Below, piece after piece: positions 11,160 through 39,762 of a stretch of DNA of 64,000 nucleotides. How positions within the stretch are numbered: position 1 is the stretch's first letter; each line of letters opens with the position of its first letter. Both the position numbers and the translations under genes were made by a program. Under the pieces are notes generated by a model. The model made no database searches. It saw only the letters and a list, made by a program, of their open reading frames with translations, and had not been told where the DNA came from. The DNA is from Streptomyces sp. 7-21 (GTDB lineage: Bacteria; Actinomycetota; Actinomycetes; Streptomycetales; Streptomycetaceae): the NCBI RefSeq assembly GCF_016741785.1, contig NZ_JAERRL010000002.1, forward strand, positions 124,001 to 188,000. The letters are read 5' to 3'.

Positions 11160-11188
11160 TTGACCCTGGCCCTTGCGCTCGGTACTCT
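11160..11188 (+). promoter_or_regulatory. HrdB-type promoter for rpsL-rpsG-fusA
   Basis: TTGACC (11160-11165) and TACTCT (11183-11188) are exactly 17 nt apart, a near-ideal vegetative promoter. It would give a leader of about 180 nt before rpsL. Confidence 0.85.
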
Positions 11189-11298
11189 CTGACCTTGTGC
11201 CTGGGGTGTTCCCTGCGCTTATTCGGCGTTAGCCGAGGCGGCAGCCAGAACTCCGGGATCTGCATTACTACCGCGCTCGCGGGGTCCCGTGCAGTCTT

Positions 11299-11323
11299 CG
11301 ACACGCCCGACCGCGTGGGTCGG
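11299..11323 (+). promoter_or_regulatory. rpsL leader element shared with the S10 leader
   Basis: These 25 nt are identical to 23582-23606 in the S10 leader. They contain four consecutive blocks: CACGC (11302-11306), CCGACC (11307-11312), GCGTG (11313-11317), GGTCGG (11318-11323). Block 1 pairs with block 3 and block 2 with block 4, so the element can form one of two mutually exclusive hairpins or a compact pseudoknot. It lies 54 nt before the rpsL start. I infer a cis-acting RNA control site for ribosomal protein operons; no ligand is known to me. Confidence 0.6.
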
Positions 11324-11376: not shown

Positions 11377-11748
11377 GTGCCAACGATCCAGCAGCTGGTC
11401 CGGAAGGGCCGGCAAGACAAGGTCGAGAAGAACAAGACGCCCGCGCTTGAGGGTTCGCCCCAGCGCCGTGGAGTGTGCACCCGTGTGTTCACCACCACAC
11501 CGAAGAAGCCGAACTCGGCCCTGCGCAAGGTCGCGCGTGTGCGTCTGAGCAATGGGATCGAGGTCACCGCTTACATTCCTGGAGAGAACCACAATCTCCA
11601 GGAGCACTCCATCGTGCTGGTGCGCGGGGGGCGTGTGAAGGACCTGCCGGGCGTGCGTTACAAGATCATCCGCGGTTCTCTTGACACCCAGGGCGTCAAG
11701 AACCGCAAGCAGGCTCGCAGCCGCTACGGCGCCAAGAAGGAGAAGTAA
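11377..11748 (+). CDS. rpsL: 30S ribosomal protein S12
   Basis: S12 sits at the decoding centre and controls translational accuracy; it is the streptomycin-response protein. The 123-residue protein begins [12 protein letters not shown] from a GTG start. Lys43 in TTTPKKPNS and Lys88 in [10 protein letters not shown] are the wild-type residues, so the sequence predicts streptomycin sensitivity at this locus. It is the first gene of the str operon, with rpsG starting 2 nt after its stop. Confidence 0.98.
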
Positions 11749-12257: not shown

Positions 12258-14381
12258 ATGGCTACCACTTCACTTGACCTGGCCAGGGTCCGGAACATCG
12301 GGATCATGGCCCACATCGACGCGGGCAAGACGACGACCACCGAGCGGATCCTCTACTACACCGGCATGAGCTACAAGGTCGGTGAGGTCCACGACGGTGC
12401 CGCCGTCACCGACTGGATGGAGCAGGAGCAGGAGCGGGGGATCACCATCACCTCCGCCGCTGTCACCTGCCACTGGACCGTCGATGGCGTCGACAACACG
12501 ATCAACATCATCGACACGCCCGGTCACGTGGACTTCACCGTCGAGGTGGAGCGCTCGCTGCGCGTCCTGGACGGCGCGGTGACGGTGTTCGACGGCGTCG
12601 CCGGTGTCGAGCCCCAGTCCGAGACCGTCTGGCGTCAGGCCGACCGCTACGGCGTGCCGCGGATCTGCTTCGTGAACAAGCTGGACCGCACGGGCGCCGA
12701 CTTCTTCCGCTGCGTCGACATGATCGTGGACCGCCTCAACGCGACTCCGCTGGTCATGCAGCTGCCTATCGGTGCCGAGGCCGACTTCCAGGGTGTCGTG
12801 GACCTCGTCCAGATGAAGGCGCTGGTCTACTCGCCCGAGGCCAAGCTCGGCGAGATGTACGACGTCGTCGACATCCCCGAGAACATGCGCGAGCAGGCCG
12901 ACGAGTGGCACAACAAGCTCGTCGAGGCCGTCGCGGAGAACGACGAGGAGATGATGGAGCTGTACCTGGAGGGCGGCGAGCCCTCCGCGGAGCAGCTCGC
13001 GGCGGCGATCCGCCGGGTCACCCTCGCCTCCACGGGCGGCGACGACGGCATCACCGTCACTCCGGTGTTCTGCGGCACCGCGTTCAAGAACAAGGGCGTG
13101 CAGCCCTTGCTCGACGCGGTGGTGCGCTACCTGCCCTCGCCGCTCGATGTCGAGGCCATCGAGGGGCACTCGCCGAAGGACGCCGAGGAGATCATCGCCC
13201 GCCGGCCGTCCGAGGAGGAGCCGCTCGCGGCCCTGGCGTTCAAGATCATGAGCGACCCGCACCTGGGCAAGCTCACGTTCGTCCGGGTCTACTCCGGTGT
13301 GCTCACCTCCGGCGCCCAGGTCATGAACTCCGTGAAGGGCAAGAAGGAGCGCATCGGCAAGATCTACCGGATGCACGCGAACAAGCGTGAGGAGATCGAG
13401 AGCGTCGGTGCGGGCGACATCTGCGCCGTCATGGGCCTGAAGCAGACCACCACGGGTGAGACGCTCTCGGACCCGAACAACCAGGTCATCCTGGAGTCCA
13501 TGGACTTCCCGGCCCCGGTCATCGAGGTGGCCATCGAGCCGAAGTCCAAGGGTGACCAGGAGAAGCTGGGCGTCGCGATCCAGCGGCTGGCCGAGGAGGA
13601 CCCGTCCTTCCAGGTCAAGGCCGACGAGGAGACCGGCCAGACCATCATCGCCGGCATGGGCGAGCTGCACCTGGACGTGCTGGTCGACCGCATGAAGCGG
13701 GAGTTCAAGGTCGAGGCCAACGTCGGCAAGCCGCAGGTTGCCTACCGGGAGACGCTGCGGCGCCCGGTCGAGAAGGTCGAGTACACGCACAAGAAGCAGA
13801 CCGGTGGCTCCGGCCAGTTCGCGAAGGTCCAGATCAGCCTGGAGCCCCTGGAGGGCGACGGCTACGAGTTCGTCAACCAGATCACCGGTGGCCGCATCCC
13901 CCGGGAGTACATCCCCTCGGTGGACGCGGGCTGCCAGGAGGCGATGGAGTTCGGCGTGCTCGCCGGCTACCCGCTGACCGGTGTGAAGGTGATCCTGACC
14001 GACGGCGCGTACCACGAGGTGGACTCGTCGGAGATGGCCTTCAAGATCGCCGGTTCCATGGCGTTCAAGGAGGCCGCGCGGAAGGCCAGCCCTGTCCTGC
14101 TCGAGCCGCTGATGGCCGTCGAGGTCACCACGCCCGAGGAGTACATGGGTGACGTCATCGGTGATATCAACTCCCGCCGTGGCCAGATCCAGGCCATGGA
14201 GGACCGCAGCGGCGCCAAGGTCGTCAAGGCGCTGGTCCCGCTGTCGGAGATGTTCGGTTACGTGGGTGACCTGCGGAGCAAGACCTCCGGCCGTGCGAGC
14301 TACAGCATGCAGTTCGACTCCTACGGCGAGGTACCCAAGAACGTCTCCGAGGAGATCATCGCGAAGGCGAAGGGCGAATAA
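12258..14381 (+). CDS. fusA: Elongation factor G
   Basis: EF-G is the GTPase that drives translocation and, with RRF, ribosome recycling. The 707-residue protein has the P-loop AHIDAGKTT (18-26), the switch [10 protein letters not shown], the NKLD guanine motif and the full five-domain length, ending in the domain IV/V region with [20 protein letters not shown]. The start ATG is preceded by GAGAGAAGAGCAAGCC. It belongs to the rpsL-rpsG-fusA operon; tuf is 175 nt downstream behind a hairpin. Confidence 0.98.
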
Positions 14382-16022: not shown

Positions 16023-16421
16023 ATGACGACGACGCGTTCCGTCCCCGAAGGAACAGAACCACCGCCGGGCGAGGACCTCACGGCCCGCTCGGTGGCCATG
16101 CACGACGACCCCCGCTTCCACGATCTGCGCGCCCGGCTGCTGCGGTTCGTGGTGCCCGTGAGCATCGGCTTTCTCGCCTGGTACCTGCTGTACGTGCTGA
16201 TGTCGGCCTATGCCCGCGGCGTGATGGCCACGGACATCGTCGGCAGCTTCAACGTGGCTCTGGTGTTCGGCCTGCTCCAGTTCGTCACGACGTTCGGCAT
16301 CGCGATCGCCTACTCCCGTTACGCCGGCCGCCGGTTCGACCCGCTCGCCGACGAGCTGCGCGGGGAACTGGAGTCCGGCGGCCCGGCCGTGCCGCCTGCC
16401 AGGAAGGGGGACGAGGCGTGA
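16023..16421 (+). CDS. DUF485 membrane protein, symporter partner
   Basis: This 132-residue protein has a 45-residue cytosolic N-terminus, two membrane segments (about 48-68 and 82-103) and a short charged tail, the layout of the DUF485/YjcH family. In many bacteria a DUF485 gene sits directly before an acetate/solute symporter and is thought to be a small accessory subunit. The start ATG at 16023 is chosen because AGGAG lies 6 nt before it and the upstream extension is unlike the family. Its stop overlaps the next start by 4 nt, so the two are translationally coupled. Confidence 0.85.
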   Translation: MTTTRSVPEGTEPPPGEDLTARSVAMHDDPRFHDLRARLLRFVVPVSIGFLAWYLLYVLMSAYARGVMATDIVGSFNVALVFGLLQFVTTFGIAIAYSRYAGRRFDPLADELRGELESGGPAVPPARKGDEA

Positions 16422-18121
16422 TCACGCTGGCACAGGCTTCCGGCTCGCAGGAGCGGCTGATCACCGTCATCCTGTTCGGCCTGCTCATCGCCACCACCAT
16501 CGGCATCACCGTGTGGGCGAGCCGCCGCACCAAGTCGGCCACCGACTTCCACTCCGCCGGCCGGGGCTTCAGCGGCATCCAGAACGGCTTCGCCATCGGC
16601 GGCGACTACATGTCGGCCGCCTCCTTCCTCGGCATCGCCGGCATGATCGCCCTCTTCGGCTACGACGGCTTCCTGTACTCGATCGGCTTCCTCGTCGCCT
16701 GGCTGGTGGCGCTGCTGCTCGTCGCCGAGCTGCTGCGGAACTCCGGCCGGTTCACGATGGCCGACGTCGTGTCGTACCGGATGCGGCAGCGGTCCGTCCG
16801 CACCGCCGCGTCGGTGTCCACGCTGACCGTCTCGATCTTCTACCTGCTGGCCCAGATGGTCGGCGCGGGCGCGCTGGTCGCGCTGCTGCTGGGCATCGAG
16901 GAGGGCGAGACGTACCTCGGGATGAGCGCCGACACCACGAAGATCGTCGGCATCGTCGTCGTCGGCATCCTGATGGTCATCTACGTGTCGTTCGGCGGCA
17001 TGACCGGCACCACCTGGGTGCAGATCGTCAAGGCCGTCATGCTCATGGGCGGCGCTCTGCTGGTGACCCTGCTGGTGCTGGCGATCTACGACTTCAACCT
17101 CGGGTCGCTGATGAACGACGCCGCGGCGGCCAGCGGCGCCGGCGACGCGTTCCTCGAACCAGGGCAGCGGTACGGCGTCGAGGTCGCGGGCGACGCCTGG
17201 CAGACCATGGTCAACAAGCTGGACCTGATCAGCCTCGGCCTCGCCCTGGTGCTGGGCACGGCCGGACTGCCGCACATCCTGATCCGCTTCTACACCGTTC
17301 CGGACTCCCGGACCGCGCGGAAGTCGGTCAACTGGGCCATCGGCATCATCGGCTGCTTCTACCTGCTGACCCTGGTGCTCGGCTTCGGCGCCGCCGCGCT
17401 GGTGGGAGCGGAGGCCATCGCGGGCCAGAACAGCGCGGGCAACACCGCGGCGCCCATGCTCGCCCAGGAGGTCGGCGACCACTTCGGCGGCGAGTTCTGG
17501 GGCGCGGTGATGCTGGCGTTCATCGCGGCCGTCGCCTTCGCGACCATCCTGTCCACGGTCGCCGGGCTGACGATCGCCTCCTCGTCCTCGCTGGCGCACG
17601 ACTTCTACAACGCCGTGCTCCGCAAGGGGCAGGCCTCGGAGAAGGAGGAGGTGCGGGTCGCCCGGTTCGCCGCCATCGGCGTGGGGGCGGTCGCCATCGT
17701 CCTCGCCGTCTTCTCGCAGAACCTCAACGTCGCCTTCCTGGTCGCCCTGGCCTTCGCCATCGCGGCCTCGGCCAACCTGCCGGTGATCCTGCTCAGCCTG
17801 TTCTGGCGGCGGTTCAACACCACCGGTGCGCTGGCCGGCATCTACGGCGGCCTGATCAGCTCCGTCGGCCTGGTGTTCTTCTCGCCCGTCGTCTCCGGCA
17901 AGGGCGTCGACGCCGAGGGGAACAGCCTGTCCCTCTTCCCCGCGAGCGTGGACTTCCACTGGTTCCCGCTGGAGAACCCGGGCCTGGTGTCCATCCCGCT
18001 GGGCCTGCTCTGCGCCATCGTCGGCACCCTGCTGTCGAAGGAGTCCGACGACGAGCGTTTCGCCCGTCTCCAGGTGCGCGCCCTGACCGGCGCGGGAGCC
18101 GAGCGCGCGTCCTCCCACTGA
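16418..18121 (+). CDS. Sodium/solute symporter, ActP-like cation acetate symporter
   Basis: A 567-residue integral membrane protein of the SSS family with about 13 hydrophobic segments. Marks of the acetate branch include ATDFHSAGRGFSGIQNGFA near the start, GGDYMSAASFLGIAG at about 64-78 and GTAGLPHILIRFYTVP at about 284-299. It should import a small carboxylate (acetate, perhaps pyruvate or propionate) with Na+ or H+. GTG start overlaps the DUF485 stop (GTGA). A perfect hairpin 66 nt downstream ends the two-gene unit. Substrate is inferred from family only. Confidence 0.88.
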   Translation: MITLAQASGSQERLITVILFGLLIATTIGITVWASRRTKSATDFHSAGRGFSGIQNGFAIGGDYMSAASFLGIAGMIALFGYDGFLYSIGFLVAWLVALLLVAELLRNSGRFTMADVVSYRMRQRSVRTAASVSTLTVSIFYLLAQMVGAGALVALLLGIEEGETYLGMSADTTKIVGIVVVGILMVIYVSFGGMTGTTWVQIVKAVMLMGGALLVTLLVLAIYDFNLGSLMNDAAAASGAGDAFLEPGQRYGVEVAGDAWQTMVNKLDLISLGLALVLGTAGLPHILIRFYTVPDSRTARKSVNWAIGIIGCFYLLTLVLGFGAAALVGAEAIAGQNSAGNTAAPMLAQEVGDHFGGEFWGAVMLAFIAAVAFATILSTVAGLTIASSSSLAHDFYNAVLRKGQASEKEEVRVARFAAIGVGAVAIVLAVFSQNLNVAFLVALAFAIAASANLPVILLSLFWRRFNTTGALAGIYGGLISSVGLVFFSPVVSGKGVDAEGNSLSLFPASVDFHWFPLENPGLVSIPLGLLCAIVGTLLSKESDDERFARLQVRALTGAGAERASSH

Positions 18122-18186
18122 CCTCCGCGCGCCTCACCGCGCTGCAACGCACCACGAGACCGCCGGGCCTCCCACCCGGCACCCTC

Positions 18187-18219
18187 CCCGGGGCCCGAGT
18201 GCCCTCCTCGGGCCCCGGG
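18187..18219 (+). terminator. Terminator after first symporter
   Basis: A perfect 13-bp stem (18187-18199 with 18207-18219) closes the loop TGCCCTC. A second GC-rich hairpin (GCGTCCCC with GGGGACGC) follows directly, making a double terminator. Confidence 0.85.
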
Positions 18220-18290
18220 CGTCCCCCTCCGGTCCGCCGCCGGGGACGCCCCGCCGCCGCGCCTCCCGGCAGCAGAATTCGGGTAATCGG

Positions 18291-18320
18291 GTGACCTGGC
18301 CACGAGGTTGCCGTCACACT
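18291..18320 (+). promoter_or_regulatory. Promoter of the DUF5954 gene, probably leaderless
   Basis: GTGACC (18291-18296), 18 nt, CACACT (18315-18320). The -10 box ends 6 nt before the ATG at 18327, so transcription would begin at or next to the start codon. No ribosome binding site is visible before that ATG. Confidence 0.5.
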
Positions 18321-18326
18321 GGGCAC

Positions 18327-19355
18327 ATGAGGGATCACCCGTGGAACACGCCGCGTCACCTGACCATCAGGGTCACCCGGCGCGACGACCCCGTCTCCGC
18401 CGTCACCGAGCAGGACGCCTGCCGCGCCGCCGTGCGGTACCCGAGCATCGTCATCCGCGGCCCCGTCTTCGGCTACGCCGAGCAGCGCCCCGAGGACGCC
18501 CCCGCCTGGCGCCTGCTCAGCGACGTCGCCGACGGCTATCCCCAGCACTCCCGCGACGGCCTCATCTCCCATCTGTGGACCAAGGCCCAGACCGAGACGC
18601 GCCCCGGCGACCGGCTGCGCGCCCACCTGATGGCCGCCATCGCCCGCCTCCAGCGCGAGCCGCCCGCCAACGAACTCACCGCGGGCACCACCCGCTATCG
18701 CGTCGTCCGCGCCGACGAGTTCGCCCGCATCGGCCCCGACGGCATCGAAGGACCCCGCCCCACCGACCCCGACGACCCCCGCCGTGACATCGGCGCTCCC
18801 GGCCGCCGCCCCAGCTGCCGCACCACCGGCTTCCTCATCGACCACGCCCGGGCCACCGGCATCGCCGAGTCCATCCAGCGCATGGAGCTGCTCGCCCTGC
18901 GCTACCGCTCGCCCCGCATCCCCCGCGCCGCCCGCGAGGACTCACGCCGCGCCGTGCGCACCCACCCCGGCGTCGTCCTGCTGCCCGCCGCCTTCACCTT
19001 CGCCGAACGCAAGGGCACCTCCTGGGAGCCGATGGCCGGCCTGCTGCCCACCCCCCAGGACGCCCGCGCCGTGCTCTTCAGCTACCTCACGGAGTTCCTC
19101 CCGGCCCTCGAACGCGACGTCCCGCACGAGCACGCCCGGCGCTACGCCGCCGCCGCCGAGGCGTACCGCTCCGGCCCCCCGCGCGACGAACTGCGCGTGC
19201 TCGGCCGCCGCTTCCGCGTCATCCGCGTCGAACGCATGATGCGCATCGGCCCCGACGGGCCCGAGCCGCCCCGCCCCAGCGACCTGGACCCCTACGGCCC
19301 CACCCGGCTCGACCCCTACCCGGGCGCCCCGCCCGCACCGCCCGCCGGCGGCTGA
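18327..19355 (+). CDS. DUF5954 family protein, internally duplicated
   Basis: A 342-residue soluble protein of unknown function matching what I remember as the actinobacterial DUF5954 family (opening RHLTIRVTRRDDPVSAV). The two halves are related: both contain a YPS/HPG-VV-PVFGYAEQ / AAFTFAER type strand near the start and end with RYRVVRADEFARIGPDG (about residues 115-131) or RFRVIRVERMMRIGPDG (about 302-318), each followed by a PRPxD proline stretch. I start at ATG 18327 rather than GTG 18291 because the latter lies in the promoter. It stands alone between two transporter units; no role can be read from context. Confidence 0.75.
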   Translation: MRDHPWNTPRHLTIRVTRRDDPVSAVTEQDACRAAVRYPSIVIRGPVFGYAEQRPEDAPAWRLLSDVADGYPQHSRDGLISHLWTKAQTETRPGDRLRAHLMAAIARLQREPPANELTAGTTRYRVVRADEFARIGPDGIEGPRPTDPDDPRRDIGAPGRRPSCRTTGFLIDHARATGIAESIQRMELLALRYRSPRIPRAAREDSRRAVRTHPGVVLLPAAFTFAERKGTSWEPMAGLLPTPQDARAVLFSYLTEFLPALERDVPHEHARRYAAAAEAYRSGPPRDELRVLGRRFRVIRVERMMRIGPDGPEPPRPSDLDPYGPTRLDPYPGAPPAPPAGG

Positions 19356-19430
19356 GCGGGCGCCGCCGCGCGCCCCGTCCGGATCGACCAGACCGCGTCC
19401 TAGCCCTACAAGCCGGGCACCCGCCTGGAC

Positions 19431-19436
19431 TACCGT
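19431..19436 (+). promoter_or_regulatory. -10 box of the kinase operon, leaderless layout
   Basis: TACCGT fits TAnnnT and ends 7 nt before the ATG at 19444. There is no ribosome binding site and no good -35 box. An alternative GTG start at 19435 lies inside this box, which argues for the ATG. Confidence 0.4.
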
Positions 19437-19443
19437 GCGGGCC

Positions 19444-20580
19444 ATGCTGGACCGGATGCGAGCACGCAGAGCCGAGTCGCGCCCCGGGGCGGACCACACC
19501 GTGCGCGTGCTGCGCGCGGTCGCCGGCCTCGGCGACGACCTGCGCGAGGGCCTGTCCGGGCGCGGCGGCACCCAGGCCGCCAAGCGGCTGCGCCGGCTGC
19601 TTCAGGCCCGCACCGTCGTCCTGGCCGATCTCGACGGACCCGTCGCCACGGCGGGCCCCGCGCCCCAGGGCGACGAGGCCGACGCGCTCGCCGCGCTGCT
19701 GGCCCAGACCTACGAGCAGGCCGCCCTGGCCCGGCGCCCGCCCTGGTGCGCCGTGCCCCTGCTCGTCGCGGACGACCTGACCGGCGCGATCGCCGTCCGC
19801 TACGGCGACGGCCCGGCCGGCAGCGCCCGCGACGGCGACCCGGCCCGCGAAGCCGAACTCGACGCCCTCGCGCCCCTCGTCGCCCGCGCCCTCGACCACG
19901 CCGCGCTGCGCCGCGCCCGCAGCCGCATCGCCCAGGCCGAGCTGCGCACCCTGCGGGCCCAGATCTCCCCGCACTTCCTCCACAACGCGCTCGCCGTCAT
20001 CGGGGCGCGTATCCGCACCGACCCCGACCGCGCCCGCACCCTGCTCAACGACTTCGCCGACTACCTGCGCTACAACTTCTCCACCAAGGGCGACTACGCC
20101 ACCGTCGCCGACGAACTCCAGGCCATCCAGACCTACCTGGAGCTCCAGCGCGCCCGCTTCGACGACCGCATGGACCTCACCGTCCGGATGGCCCCCGAGA
20201 TCCTGCCGGTCGCCATCCCGTTCCTCGTCATCCAGCCGCTCGTGGAGAACGCCGTCCGCCACGGCCTGGAGCCCAAGCCTGGCCCCGGCTCCATCAGCGT
20301 CTCCGGCTACGGCGAGGGGCCGTTGTGCGTGATCGAGATCGAGGACGACGGCGTCGGCATGGACCCCGCCTACGCCCAGGCCCTGCTCGCCGGGACCGGC
20401 CCGCCCAAGGACGCCGCCGGCGACGTCGGCCGCCGCCGGGTGGGCCTGGCCAACGTCGACGAACGCCTGCGCACCGTGTACGGGCCCGAGTACGGGCTCG
20501 TCATCGAGACCGCGCCCGGCAGCGGCACCAAGGTCGTCGTCCGGGTGCCCCGGTTCCAGCGAGGGGTGCTGGCCACATGA
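19444..20580 (+). CDS. LytS-type sensor histidine kinase
   Basis: A 378-residue kinase without membrane segments. Residues about 45-150 look like a GAF-type sensory region. A coiled helix leads to the His_kinase (PF06580) motif QISPHFLHNAL with phosphoacceptor His177, and residues about 260-370 form the ATPase domain with the N-box PLVENAVRHGLEPK, DDGVGM and GLANVDERLRTVYG. This is the LytS/BtsS/YehU class that pairs with LytTR regulators. Here the membrane-spanning 5TM sensor of LytS is missing, so it likely senses a cytosolic signal. The stop overlaps the next start (ATGA), so kinase and regulator are coupled. Confidence 0.9.
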   Translation: MLDRMRARRAESRPGADHTVRVLRAVAGLGDDLREGLSGRGGTQAAKRLRRLLQARTVVLADLDGPVATAGPAPQGDEADALAALLAQTYEQAALARRPPWCAVPLLVADDLTGAIAVRYGDGPAGSARDGDPAREAELDALAPLVARALDHAALRRARSRIAQAELRTLRAQISPHFLHNALAVIGARIRTDPDRARTLLNDFADYLRYNFSTKGDYATVADELQAIQTYLELQRARFDDRMDLTVRMAPEILPVAIPFLVIQPLVENAVRHGLEPKPGPGSISVSGYGEGPLCVIEIEDDGVGMDPAYAQALLAGTGPPKDAAGDVGRRRVGLANVDERLRTVYGPEYGLVIETAPGSGTKVVVRVPRFQRGVLAT

Positions 20581-21389
20581 CCGGAATCACGGGAATGACC
20601 GGGACGGCCGCGCCGGCGCGGTCCGCCCGGCTGCGCGCCCTCGTCGTCGAGGACGAGGCGTCCACGCGGCAGGAACTGGCGTCCCTGCTCGCCGCGATGC
20701 CGGAGATCGCCACCGTCCGCGAGGCGGACAGCGGCGAGTCGGCCGTGCGGCTGCTGGGCACCGAGACGTTCGACGCCGCGTTCCTCGACATCTCCATGCC
20801 GGGACTGGACGGCATGGAACTCGCCCGCCTGCTGGCCGTGCTGTCCTCGCCGCCCGCCATCGTCTTCGTCACCGCCTCCGAGTCCCACGCCGTCGAGGCG
20901 TTCGGTATCGGGGCCGCGGACTACCTCCTCAAGCCGCTGCGGCCCGAGCGCCTGGCCGAGGCCGTCTCCCGCGTCCTGGCGCTGCGCCGCCCCGGGCGCG
21001 GCCCGGCCGCCCCGGCCGCGCCGGCGCAGCAGCCCGCCGACGAACTGGCCGTCGTGCAGATCGAGACCGGGCGCCACACCCTGTTCATCCACCGCGACGA
21101 CATCCAGTTCGCCGAGGCGCACGGCGACTACGTGCGCCTGCACACCGCCGAGGGCAGCCACCTCATCCGGCTGTCCCTGTCCTACCTGGAGGAGGTCTGG
21201 GCGTCCGCCGGGTTCGTGCGCGCCCACCGCGGCTACCTGGTGTCCGTCAACTGGGTCCGCGACCTGCACGTCACCAGCTCCTCCGGGCTGCTCGCCCGCA
21301 CCCCCGCCGGGGACGTTCCGGTCAGCCGCCGCCACGCCAGGGAGCTGAAGGAACGGCTGCTCGCCGCCGTCCGGGACGAGCAGCGGTGA
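20577..21389 (+). CDS. LytTR response regulator
   Basis: A 270-residue regulator with a receiver domain (about 20-135; acidic pocket VVEDE, phosphoacceptor Asp71 in FLDISMPG, Lys119 in LLKPLRP), an Ala/Pro-rich linker, and a C-terminal LytTR DNA-binding domain (about 160-265; FAEAHGDYVRLHT, RAHRGYLVSVNWV). LytTR proteins usually bind direct-repeat sites upstream of a transporter; the target here is most simply its own operon with the symporter two genes downstream, as with BtsSR-btsT in E. coli. Overlaps neighbours on both sides by 4 nt. Confidence 0.92.
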   Translation: MTGITGMTGTAAPARSARLRALVVEDEASTRQELASLLAAMPEIATVREADSGESAVRLLGTETFDAAFLDISMPGLDGMELARLLAVLSSPPAIVFVTASESHAVEAFGIGAADYLLKPLRPERLAEAVSRVLALRRPGRGPAAPAAPAQQPADELAVVQIETGRHTLFIHRDDIQFAEAHGDYVRLHTAEGSHLIRLSLSYLEEVWASAGFVRAHRGYLVSVNWVRDLHVTSSSGLLARTPAGDVPVSRRHARELKERLLAAVRDEQR

Positions 21390-21775
21390 GCCAGCAGCGG
21401 CGGGTGCGGATCACCAGCCCGCAGACCCGGATCGCGCTCTCCCGGCGCCACCGGCCGGCCCAGCACCTGGTGCCGCTGCCCGCACCCGGCACCGAGGACG
21501 AGGCGCTCGACGCCCGGGCCCGGGCGGTCTTCGCGCGGCAGCGGCGGCTGGCCGTGCGCACCATGGCCGCGCTGGGCACGCTGCTGTTCGGCCTGTCCGG
21601 CCTGCTCGGCGCCTTCCCCGGGCTCGGCGATGTCGCCGTCGCGGGCATCCCCGCCTCCTGGCTGCTGCTGATGACCGCGTCCTATCCGCTGCTGCTGCTC
21701 ATCGCGGCGCTGCACGTCCGCGCCGCGGAGCGCATCGAGGACGACAGCCGCCGCGGCGGCGGACAGGGCACATGA
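21386..21775 (+). CDS. Two-helix membrane protein, DUF485-like symporter partner
   Basis: A 129-residue protein with a basic N-terminal half, two strongly hydrophobic segments (about 60-79 and 88-109), and a short charged tail. The layout and its place directly before an SSS symporter copy those of the DUF485 gene at 16023, although sequence similarity by eye is weak. GTG start overlaps the regulator stop (GTGA), and its own stop overlaps the symporter start (ATGA). I infer a small subunit of the downstream transporter. Confidence 0.75.
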   Translation: MSQQRRVRITSPQTRIALSRRHRPAQHLVPLPAPGTEDEALDARARAVFARQRRLAVRTMAALGTLLFGLSGLLGAFPGLGDVAVAGIPASWLLLMTASYPLLLLIAALHVRAAERIEDDSRRGGGQGT

Positions 21776-23223
21776 CCGGCCTGCTCGCCATCGGACTGCT
21801 GCTGGCCGCCAGCATGGCCATCGGCGTCTACGGGGTGCGCGCCGCGCGCACGACGCCCGACTTCCTGGTCGCCTCGCGCCGCATCGCCCCCGGCTGGAAC
21901 GCCATGGCCATCGCGGGGGAGTACGTCTCGGCGGCCTCCGTGCTGGGGCTGGCGGGCATGATGCTCAAGGACGGCGTGGGCAGCCTGTGGTACGCGGTCG
22001 GCTTCACCGCCGGGTACGTCGCGGTCGTCGCCCTCGTCGCCGGGCCGATGCGCCGCTCCGGCGCGTACACCGTGCCGGACTTCGCCGACTACCGGCTGGG
22101 CTCGCAGGCCATCAGGAAGCTGTGTGCGGTCATCGTCCTGGTCATCATGTGGATGTACCTGGTGCCGCAGTTCAAGGGCGCCGGGGTGGTGCTGCACCTG
22201 GTCAGCGGCACGCCCTACTGGGTGGGCGTGGTGCTCGCCGGGTTGGTGGTCTGCGTCTCGATCGCCGCCGGGGGCATGCGCTCGGCCACGTACGTGCAGG
22301 GCTTCCACTACCTGGTCAAGCTCGTCTTCATCGCGGTGCCCGCCGTCTTCCTGTTCGCGCACGCGGGCCCGGAGGCCCGGCAGCGGGCGCTGACCGTGGA
22401 GACCGGCGAGTGGAGCAGGCCGCTGCTCGACCTGGCCGGCGCCGGGGAGCCGCTGCTGTCCACGTGGTCCGTGCTGCTCGCCACGACGCTCGGGGCGGCC
22501 GGGCTGCCGCACGTCATCATGCGGTTCCACACCAGCGCCACGGCGCGGGTGGCCCGGCGGGTGGCGGTCGGCGTCATCGTGCTGCTGGGGCTGTTCTACC
22601 TCTTCCCCGCGGTGTACGGGCTGCTCGGCCGGGTCTTCACCCGCGATCTGGTCGGCAGCGGCGACACGGACACCGTCACGGTGGTGCTGCCGGGCGAGAT
22701 CATCGGCGGGGTCTTCGGAGAGGTGCTGACGGCCGTGGTCGCGGCGGGTGCCTTCGCCGCCTTCCTGTCCACGTCCTCCGGGCTGCTGATGGCGCTGGCC
22801 GGCGGGCTCTCGCACGACCTCTCGCGCGCCAGCCTGCCGCGGCTGCGGGCGGCGGTGGCGGCGGGGGCGCTGGTCGCCGTCGTGCTGTCGCTGCCGGCGG
22901 AGCGGGTGGACATCAACGTGCTCGTCGGCTGGGCGTTCGCGGTGGCCGCCTCGACGTTCTGCCCGCTGCTGGTGCTGGGCATCTGGTGGCGCGGCCTGAC
23001 GCTGGTGGGGGCCGCCGCCGGGCTGACGACGGGGGTGTGCGCGGCGTCGGGGGCGGCGCTGGCCTCGGTCGTGTGGGACCCGGGGCCCGGCTGGCTGGTG
23101 GTGCTGCTGGCCCAGCCGGCCGCCTGGACGGTGCCGCTGGCGTTCGCGGTGATGGCGGGGGTCTCGCTGCTGGGCACCCCGCCCGACTGGGCCGAGCGCG
23201 CCGTGCTCCGGCTGCACGTCTAA
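21772..23223 (+). CDS. Sodium/solute symporter (SSS family), second copy
   Basis: A 483-residue multi-span membrane protein with SSS signatures: TPDFLVASRRIAPGWNAMA near 24-42, AGEYVSAASVLGLAGMMLK at about 44-62 and TLGAAGLPHVIMRFHTS near 240-256. It is shorter and diverged from the first symporter, so the two probably differ in substrate or affinity. Being last in a four-gene operon with a LytS kinase and LytTR regulator suggests control by an external or internal carboxylate such as pyruvate; this is inference from BtsSR and LytST systems. Confidence 0.88.
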   Translation: MTGLLAIGLLLAASMAIGVYGVRAARTTPDFLVASRRIAPGWNAMAIAGEYVSAASVLGLAGMMLKDGVGSLWYAVGFTAGYVAVVALVAGPMRRSGAYTVPDFADYRLGSQAIRKLCAVIVLVIMWMYLVPQFKGAGVVLHLVSGTPYWVGVVLAGLVVCVSIAAGGMRSATYVQGFHYLVKLVFIAVPAVFLFAHAGPEARQRALTVETGEWSRPLLDLAGAGEPLLSTWSVLLATTLGAAGLPHVIMRFHTSATARVARRVAVGVIVLLGLFYLFPAVYGLLGRVFTRDLVGSGDTDTVTVVLPGEIIGGVFGEVLTAVVAAGAFAAFLSTSSGLLMALAGGLSHDLSRASLPRLRAAVAAGALVAVVLSLPAERVDINVLVGWAFAVAASTFCPLLVLGIWWRGLTLVGAAAGLTTGVCAASGAALASVVWDPGPGWLVVLLAQPAAWTVPLAFAVMAGVSLLGTPPDWAERAVLRLHV

Positions 23224-23572: not shown

Positions 23573-23606
23573 GGTCGGGCGCGACACGCCCGACCGCGTG
23601 GGTCGG
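23573..23606 (+). promoter_or_regulatory. S10 leader switch element shared with rpsL leader
   Basis: Positions 23582-23606 are identical to 11299-11323 upstream of rpsL, with blocks CACGC (23585-23589), CCGACC (23590-23595), GCGTG (23596-23600) and GGTCGG (23601-23606). Here there is also an upstream partner: GGTCGGGCG (23573-23581) can pair perfectly with CGCCCGACC (23587-23595) around a CGACA loop. CCGACC can therefore pair upstream or downstream, a layout typical of an attenuation or antitermination switch. It ends 64 nt before rpsJ. Confidence 0.6.
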
Positions 23607-23670: not shown

Positions 23671-23979
23671 ATGGCGGGACAGAAGATCCGCATCCGGCTC
23701 AAGGCCTACGACCACGAGGTCATCGACAACTCGGCGAAGAAGATCGTCGAGACGGTGACCCGCACGGGTGCGTCGGTCGCGGGCCCGGTGCCGCTGCCCA
23801 CGGAAAAGAACGTGTACTGCGTCATCAAGTCGCCGCACAAGTACAAGGACTCGCGCGAGCACTTCGAGATGCGTACGCACAAGCGTCTGATCGACATCCT
23901 CGACCCGACCCCCAAGACCGTTGACTCGCTGATGCGCCTGGACCTGCCCGCCGGCGTGGACATCGAGATCAAGCTCTGA
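23671..23979 (+). CDS. rpsJ: 30S ribosomal protein S10 / NusE
   Basis: S10 is part of the 30S head and, as NusE, joins NusB and NusG in transcription antitermination and coupling. The 102-residue protein ([16 protein letters not shown] to GVDIEIKL) has the exact family length. It is first in the S10 operon, and rplC follows after 14 nt. A dual role in antitermination is notable given the switch-like leader just upstream. Confidence 0.98.
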
Positions 23980-39691: not shown

Positions 39692-39709
39692 GCGCCCCGT
39701 CCGGGGCGC
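39692..39709 (+). terminator. Small hairpin between rpoA and rplQ
   Basis: GCGCCCC (39692-39698) pairs with GGGGCGC (39703-39709) around GTCC, directly after the rpoA stop. More likely a weak attenuator or an RNA stability element than a full terminator, since rplQ follows. Confidence 0.45.
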
Positions 39710-39762
39710 CCCCTGACACCGGTACCTGATACGGCCGGTGCAGAGACACGAGGAGAGACACC

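Follow-up and report, generated by a model that had tools for sequence, protein, structure and literature searches.

Based on comparative analysis of actinobacterial leaders, we propose that a 25-mer found upstream of both rpsL and rpsJ is very probably a double-stranded DNA operator through which the regulator WhiA co-regulates the str and S10 operons. WhiA is a monomeric regulator that combines an HTH domain with a LAGLIDADG homing-endonuclease-like (HEN) domain. The element was noticed in the window, the 64,000-nucleotide stretch of DNA from a Streptomyces-type genome that was analysed here.

A repeated 25-mer at the head of two operons

Direct reading of the window confirmed an earlier sequence-only reading in which 11299–11323 and 23582–23606 were said to be identical; both have the sequence CGACACGCCCGACCGCGTGGGTCGG (Table 1). 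The composition of the element as four blocks, CACGC-CCGACC-GCGTG-GGTCGG (a-b-a'-b'), was also given correctly, and so was the unlikeness of the two leaders outside it: the first base 3' of the 25-mer already differs, and on the 5' side the match breaks off within two bases. A search for the 22-nt a-b-a'-b' part that tolerated up to three mismatches found two copies in the window, where 0.04 are expected by chance, and the same two in the whole 4.8-Mb genome, these being the only ones in this genome. The 3' end of the 25-mer lies 53 nt upstream of the GTG of rpsL and 64 nt upstream of the ATG of rpsJ. The str and S10 operons are ~7.9 kb apart, and the DNA between them (16418–23223) encodes two sodium:solute symporters, a DUF5954 protein, a histidine kinase and a LytTR response regulator. 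A partial look-alike at 12512–12531, CGACACGCCCGGTCACGTGG, corresponds to the DTPGHV codons of fusA and is a coding coincidence.

Table 1. Features of the window that bear on the proposed operator
Feature	Position	Strand	Basis
Probable main rpsL promoter, TTGACC-17-TACTCT	11160..11188	+	Sequence; 110 nt upstream of operator
Predicted WhiA-type bipartite operator of the str operon (rpsL-rpsG-fusA-tuf), in the transcribed leader	11299..11323	+	Conserved before rpsL in 105 loci; core match
Predicted WhiA HTH core, GACACGCC	11300..11307	+	Columns 2–9, nearly invariant except R7; GAYACRCY (PMC11701221), GACAC (PMC3781837)
Putative auxiliary part for the WhiA homing-endonuclease-like domain, CGACCGCGTGG	11308..11318	+	Columns 10–20
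rpsL, ribosomal protein S12, first gene of the str operon	11377..11748	+	ORF; Pfam PF00164 match
Predicted WhiA-type bipartite operator of the S10 operon	23582..23606	+	Identical 25-mer; 49 rpsJ loci; S. venezuelae ChIP peak
rpsJ, ribosomal protein S10, first gene of the S10 operon	23671..23979	+	ORF; tblastn query, neighbour order same in relatives

Conservation and placement in relatives

rpsL was found in 152 of the 158 genomes of the class, and 120 regions of at most 20 kb each were analysed. Upstream of rpsL a sharp conserved island with the consensus GNGCGACACRCCCGACCKCGKGGGTCGG extends across ~75 genera of Actinomycetia, and across the same genera a copy of the island is present at rpsJ where that gene begins its own unit. 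A position-weight-matrix scan of both strands of the 120 regions and the window gave 154 elements, 105 before rpsL and 49 before rpsJ, all in the orientation of the gene and 28–200 nt ahead of its start codon. Otherwise the scan picked up fusA in three loci, at its DTPGHVDF codons, and gave one weak hit in locus L089. Information content is high in columns 1–20 and drops to ~0.1 bit beyond columns –2 to 25, where the flanks are random. Columns 2–9 are nearly invariant except R7, columns 10–20 (CGACCKCGKGG) are kept in hosts and phages, and across 72 distinct elements the invariant bases are A3, C4, C8–G11, C16, G17 and G19.

The distribution of the element follows a pattern of one element per transcription unit: a separate rpsJ copy is absent where rpsJ starts within ~180 nt of tuf and usual where the gap is longer, families f17 and f18 (gaps of ~210–330 nt) being the exceptions. 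Nearly all of 148 genomes of the same order have at least two matches of the 22-nt part with up to three mismatches; among the matches listed, paired close copies are usual and a few genomes of family f3 have a single one. When 84,980 species genomes were scanned with CGACACRCCCGACCKCGKGGGTCG, 120 of the 122 matches listed lay before rpsJ (70) or rpsL (50), and the remaining two were less than 100 nt from the end of the DNA, with the downstream gene out of view. The organisms among the matches listed are Actinomycetia and one Acidimicrobiales MAG (L239), which carries its copy before rpsJ. Scattered occurrence outside ribosomal leaders, named in the sequence-only reading as evidence that would speak against it, is thus not seen among these bacterial matches; it is seen in phages, as described below. 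In a phylum-wide sample of 28 rpsL loci the full element was present in class members only. Outside the class, two loci that are presumably Coriobacteriia-like (L123 and L124) have GATACGCCCGGANNCGTGGC directly 5' of a TTTGACA box upstream of rpsL, with GATACGCCCGGANNCGTGGCGTTTGACA as a WhiA-like core abutting the –35 box, and a third locus (L141) has a one-base variant of GATACGCCCGGANNCGTGGCGTTTGACA upstream of rpsL. This arrangement resembles a WhiA core placed at a –35 box.

WhiA and the predicted bipartite site

The GACAC at the 5' end of the element identified WhiA as a candidate. WhiA of Mycoplasma gallisepticum binds GAYACRCY by its HTH domain and an auxiliary motif, which is clade-specific and lies downstream of the core, by its HEN domain (Fisunov et al. 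2024, PMC11701221). The core of the 25-mer, GACACRCC, fits this pattern, and it is followed by a conserved auxiliary part in columns 10–20, within which C10, G11, C16, G17 and G19 are invariant. In M. gallisepticum the protein sits before the rpsJ operon and represses it, in an ATP-dependent manner in mycoplasmas, and WhiA cores precede rpsJ operons in several phyla, Actinobacteria among them (PMC11701221). The element described here stands before the rpsJ operon in 49 sampled and at least 70 scanned loci, and likewise before rpsL. A search with TIGR00647 found whiA in 157 of 158 genomes of the class, this genome included (8.1e-109).

In Streptomyces venezuelae a WhiA ChIP-seq peak lies 75 bp from the rpsJ start (vegetative, 4.5e-11), rpsJ expression depends on whiA, and translation targets are down in the whiA mutant (Bush et al. 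2013, PMC3781837). At 12 Streptomyces rpsJ loci the element ends 62–92 nt before the start codon and therefore covers the position of the ChIP peak in most of them. rpsL is unnamed in the main text of that paper; we infer that WhiA also binds the rpsL copy and that the HEN domain contacts the auxiliary part in actinobacteria. Most Streptomyces WhiA sites have only GACAC in common, a sequence that occurs ~15,000 times per Streptomyces genome, and further determinants of WhiA specificity must exist (PMC3781837).

Family f33 allows protein and site to be compared. The rpsL element has been lost in this family, and at two rpsJ loci of its genus g60 (L107 and L171; L169 and L170 were left out) GACACGCC is kept while the following part is altered to GGGTTTGCRGAA. 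No full-length hits score lower against the model than the WhiA proteins of f33, and with a domain border drawn by eye the changes in these proteins at otherwise invariant positions amount to 24 of 110 in the HEN domain versus 7 of 69 in the HTH domain. This contrast, which is modest and represents one or two evolutionary events, agrees with a HEN domain that reads the auxiliary part.

Copies in viral genomes

In IMG/VR contigs, 63 stretches contain the 20-nt core CGACACRCCCGACCKCGKGG, and a looser pattern finds more. The matches are mostly intergenic and largely in contigs of 35–48% GC; a few lie inside reading frames and may be due to chance. Phage copies keep auxiliary columns 10–20 and not columns 21–25. 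Thirty viral records hold one to four copies each (loci L331–L451, for example L337, L339, L393 and L436), on one strand per contig, with both strands used only in the record of L375. In a first group of phages the genes on either side are encoded on the other strand from the element, and TGTGA-N6-TCACA sites are close by; a second group has it after a terminator-like hairpin; in a third, a –10-like box and a short ORF follow ~50 nt downstream. This intergenic placement, in some cases 5' of promoter-like sites and in others on the opposite strand, fits a DNA site. whiA was not detectable in the 30 viral records, many of which are fragments, and the named cultured phages searched gave weak matches alone, mostly within genes. 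The copies suggest that viruses exploit the same WhiA switch. We speculate, with the balance evenly poised, that uncultured actinophages carry the host ribosomal WhiA operator, so that host WhiA, perhaps as an energy or growth sensor, either controls phage promoters or is titrated off the ribosomal operons during infection.

Unlikely alternatives: RNA fold, antitermination and leader peptide

What is conserved, the DNA site or its transcript? A strict promoter pattern is present 5' of the rpsL element in 78 of 105 loci, versus 0.5 in shuffled sequence, at a median distance of 120 nt, and none was found between element and start codon in the same 105 loci. The rpsL element is therefore transcribed. 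At the rpsJ loci the strict pattern was recognised in none of 49. Transcription at rpsL is in keeping with an RNA switch or tight pseudoknot (a:a', b:b') in the mRNA leaders, to which a ribosomal protein such as S10, S12, S7 or L4 would bind; so are the fixed orientation in hosts, the ability of both helices to form in this genome, and the frequency of ribosomal-protein leaders, which are often confined to particular lineages (Eckert and Weinberg 2020, PMC7247131). Against it stands the fate of the pairing in relatives. Helix a:a' is complete in only 7 and helix b:b' in only 15 of 72 distinct relatives, the 3' arm b' decays in host copies, and in the viral copies this arm is absent and helix b complete in 0 of 24 distinct sequences. 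Two-sided changes occupy 2 of 792 cells in the 72 distinct elements, fewer than in shuffles, and the observed values were matched or exceeded in most shuffles. Neither helix covaries, the very outcome that the sequence-only reading had said would count against it. Its suggestion to consult Rfam likewise led to no family: Rfam 15 scans of the window and both leaders found nothing at either 25-mer. Moreover, some phage copies are in DNA that does not head the transcripts of neighbouring genes. The conservation of the rpsL element thus reads as that of a sequence-specific site, not of a fold, and we consider an RNA switch very unlikely. In place of S10/NusE, S12 or an antitermination complex, which had been suggested as trans-acting factors, the literature indicates WhiA acting on DNA; the broader idea, one cis element common to the two main ribosomal-protein operons for their joint regulation, is upheld as probable.

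In the Rfam scans an RT-13 match of 26.6 bits fell far under the gathering score of 69.1. Neither hairpins a and b nor a third one (CCCG:CGKG) had compensatory support; the pairs that hold are invariant ones. The window also contains, at 39692–39743, an L17-Actino-Proteobacteria ribosomal leader (RF03132, 61.9 bits). At 11195–11235, right after the presumed rpsL transcription start, the window and its relatives have a hairpin-like stretch (CUUGUGCCYGG...CCRGGCAC) whose structure, judged by eye, seems to be kept in rpsL leaders, those of the Coriobacteriia-like loci among them. This stretch may represent a genuine RNA leader element distinct from the 25-mer. Upstream of the promoter, three loci (L081, L113 and L116) have an extra CGACACGCC or its complement 5' of the rpsL –35 box, a 9-mer that is rare in those genomes, and a few lineages with small genomes likewise have CGACACGCC 5' of the rpsL promoter. 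Counted over whole small actinobacterial genomes, this sequence was not clearly enriched relative to the reversed control.

An element of the put, nut or ops kind, at which RNA polymerase or a NusG-type factor would bring about processive antitermination or pausing, would account for a single copy per long operon, 3' of the promoter and in one orientation in hosts, and also for the one to four mostly same-strand copies in phage contigs, some of them preceded by terminator-like hairpins. However, the element, which is in sense with the operon it serves in hosts, has its flanking genes on the other strand in phage family 1, and in phage family 4 a promoter-like –10 box follows downstream of it. 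Its core is, in addition, a known WhiA site, and the effect of such a site on elongation is weak (Fisunov et al., PMC11701221). Antitermination is for these reasons highly improbable. A third reading takes the element as the core RH(A/T)RPRGS of a leader peptide in the frame CGA CAC RCC CGA CCN CGN GGG TCG, which puts the variable columns 15 and 18 at the third positions of codons. This is scarcely credible: in many loci, the rpsL leader of the window among them, the frame has no start codon from the last stop up to the element, and neither starts nor stops are conserved in position. For lack of start codons the peptide RHxRPRGS was rejected.

A model for WhiA at the ribosomal operons

How might WhiA act at these sites? 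In the predicted arrangement GACACRCC is read by the HTH domain and the adjoining CGACCKCGKGG by the HEN domain, so that one WhiA protein would cover ~20 bp. One such operator would head each ribosomal-protein transcription unit, str and S10, and WhiA at both would set the output of the two operons together. The rpsL operator would lie in leader DNA 3' of the main promoter. The sign of the effect might be either way, repression as at the mycoplasma rpsJ operon or activation as suggested by the decrease of rpsJ in the S. venezuelae whiA mutant. The rpsL site is found ~120 nt past the –10 box, in a single orientation in hosts, versus 22–40 nt downstream of the transcription start for most Mollicutes sites, where the WhiA site has little effect on elongation and action on initiation is favoured (PMC11701221). 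In view of this greater distance the mechanism may differ, and WhiA could be envisaged to act as a roadblock or to reach a site further upstream by looping. On this model, what WhiA does in vegetative growth throughout the class would be to set the output of ribosomal proteins at two operon heads, sporulation targets having been added later.

Relation to known systems

The actinobacterial rpsJ site is already reported in substance. The rpsL copy, the 20–25 bp consensus, the restriction to a single site for each unit and the one to four phage copies are apparently undescribed in the main texts of the literature searched: a search by sequence string returned nothing relevant, no description of the element was found in the literature on actinobacterial ribosomal leaders, and Eckert and Weinberg (PMC7247131) list no leader for rpsL or rpsJ of Actinobacteria. 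Like the RNA leaders of ribosomal-protein genes (L17, L31; PMC7247131), the element stands upstream of operons and is transcribed at rpsL; unlike them, it has neither covarying structure nor an Rfam match. With the Mollicutes rpsJ operator (PMC11701221) it shares a GAYACRCY core, a downstream auxiliary motif and a place before rpsJ, downstream of the transcription start. It differs in its auxiliary sequence (CGACCKCGKGG here, GTTGT there), in lying ~120 nt past the rpsL –10 box, and, relative to the main text of that report, in the second copy at rpsL and the copies in phages. The WhiA sites of S. venezuelae (PMC3781837) are comparable in having a regulator from the same genus, a GACAC core and the rpsJ peak at 75 bp. 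In contrast to the consensus reported there, GACAC alone with no more found by MEME, the ribosomal sites carry a long, near-invariant extension, and this near-invariant 20-bp site offers a concrete full-length WhiA consensus to test.
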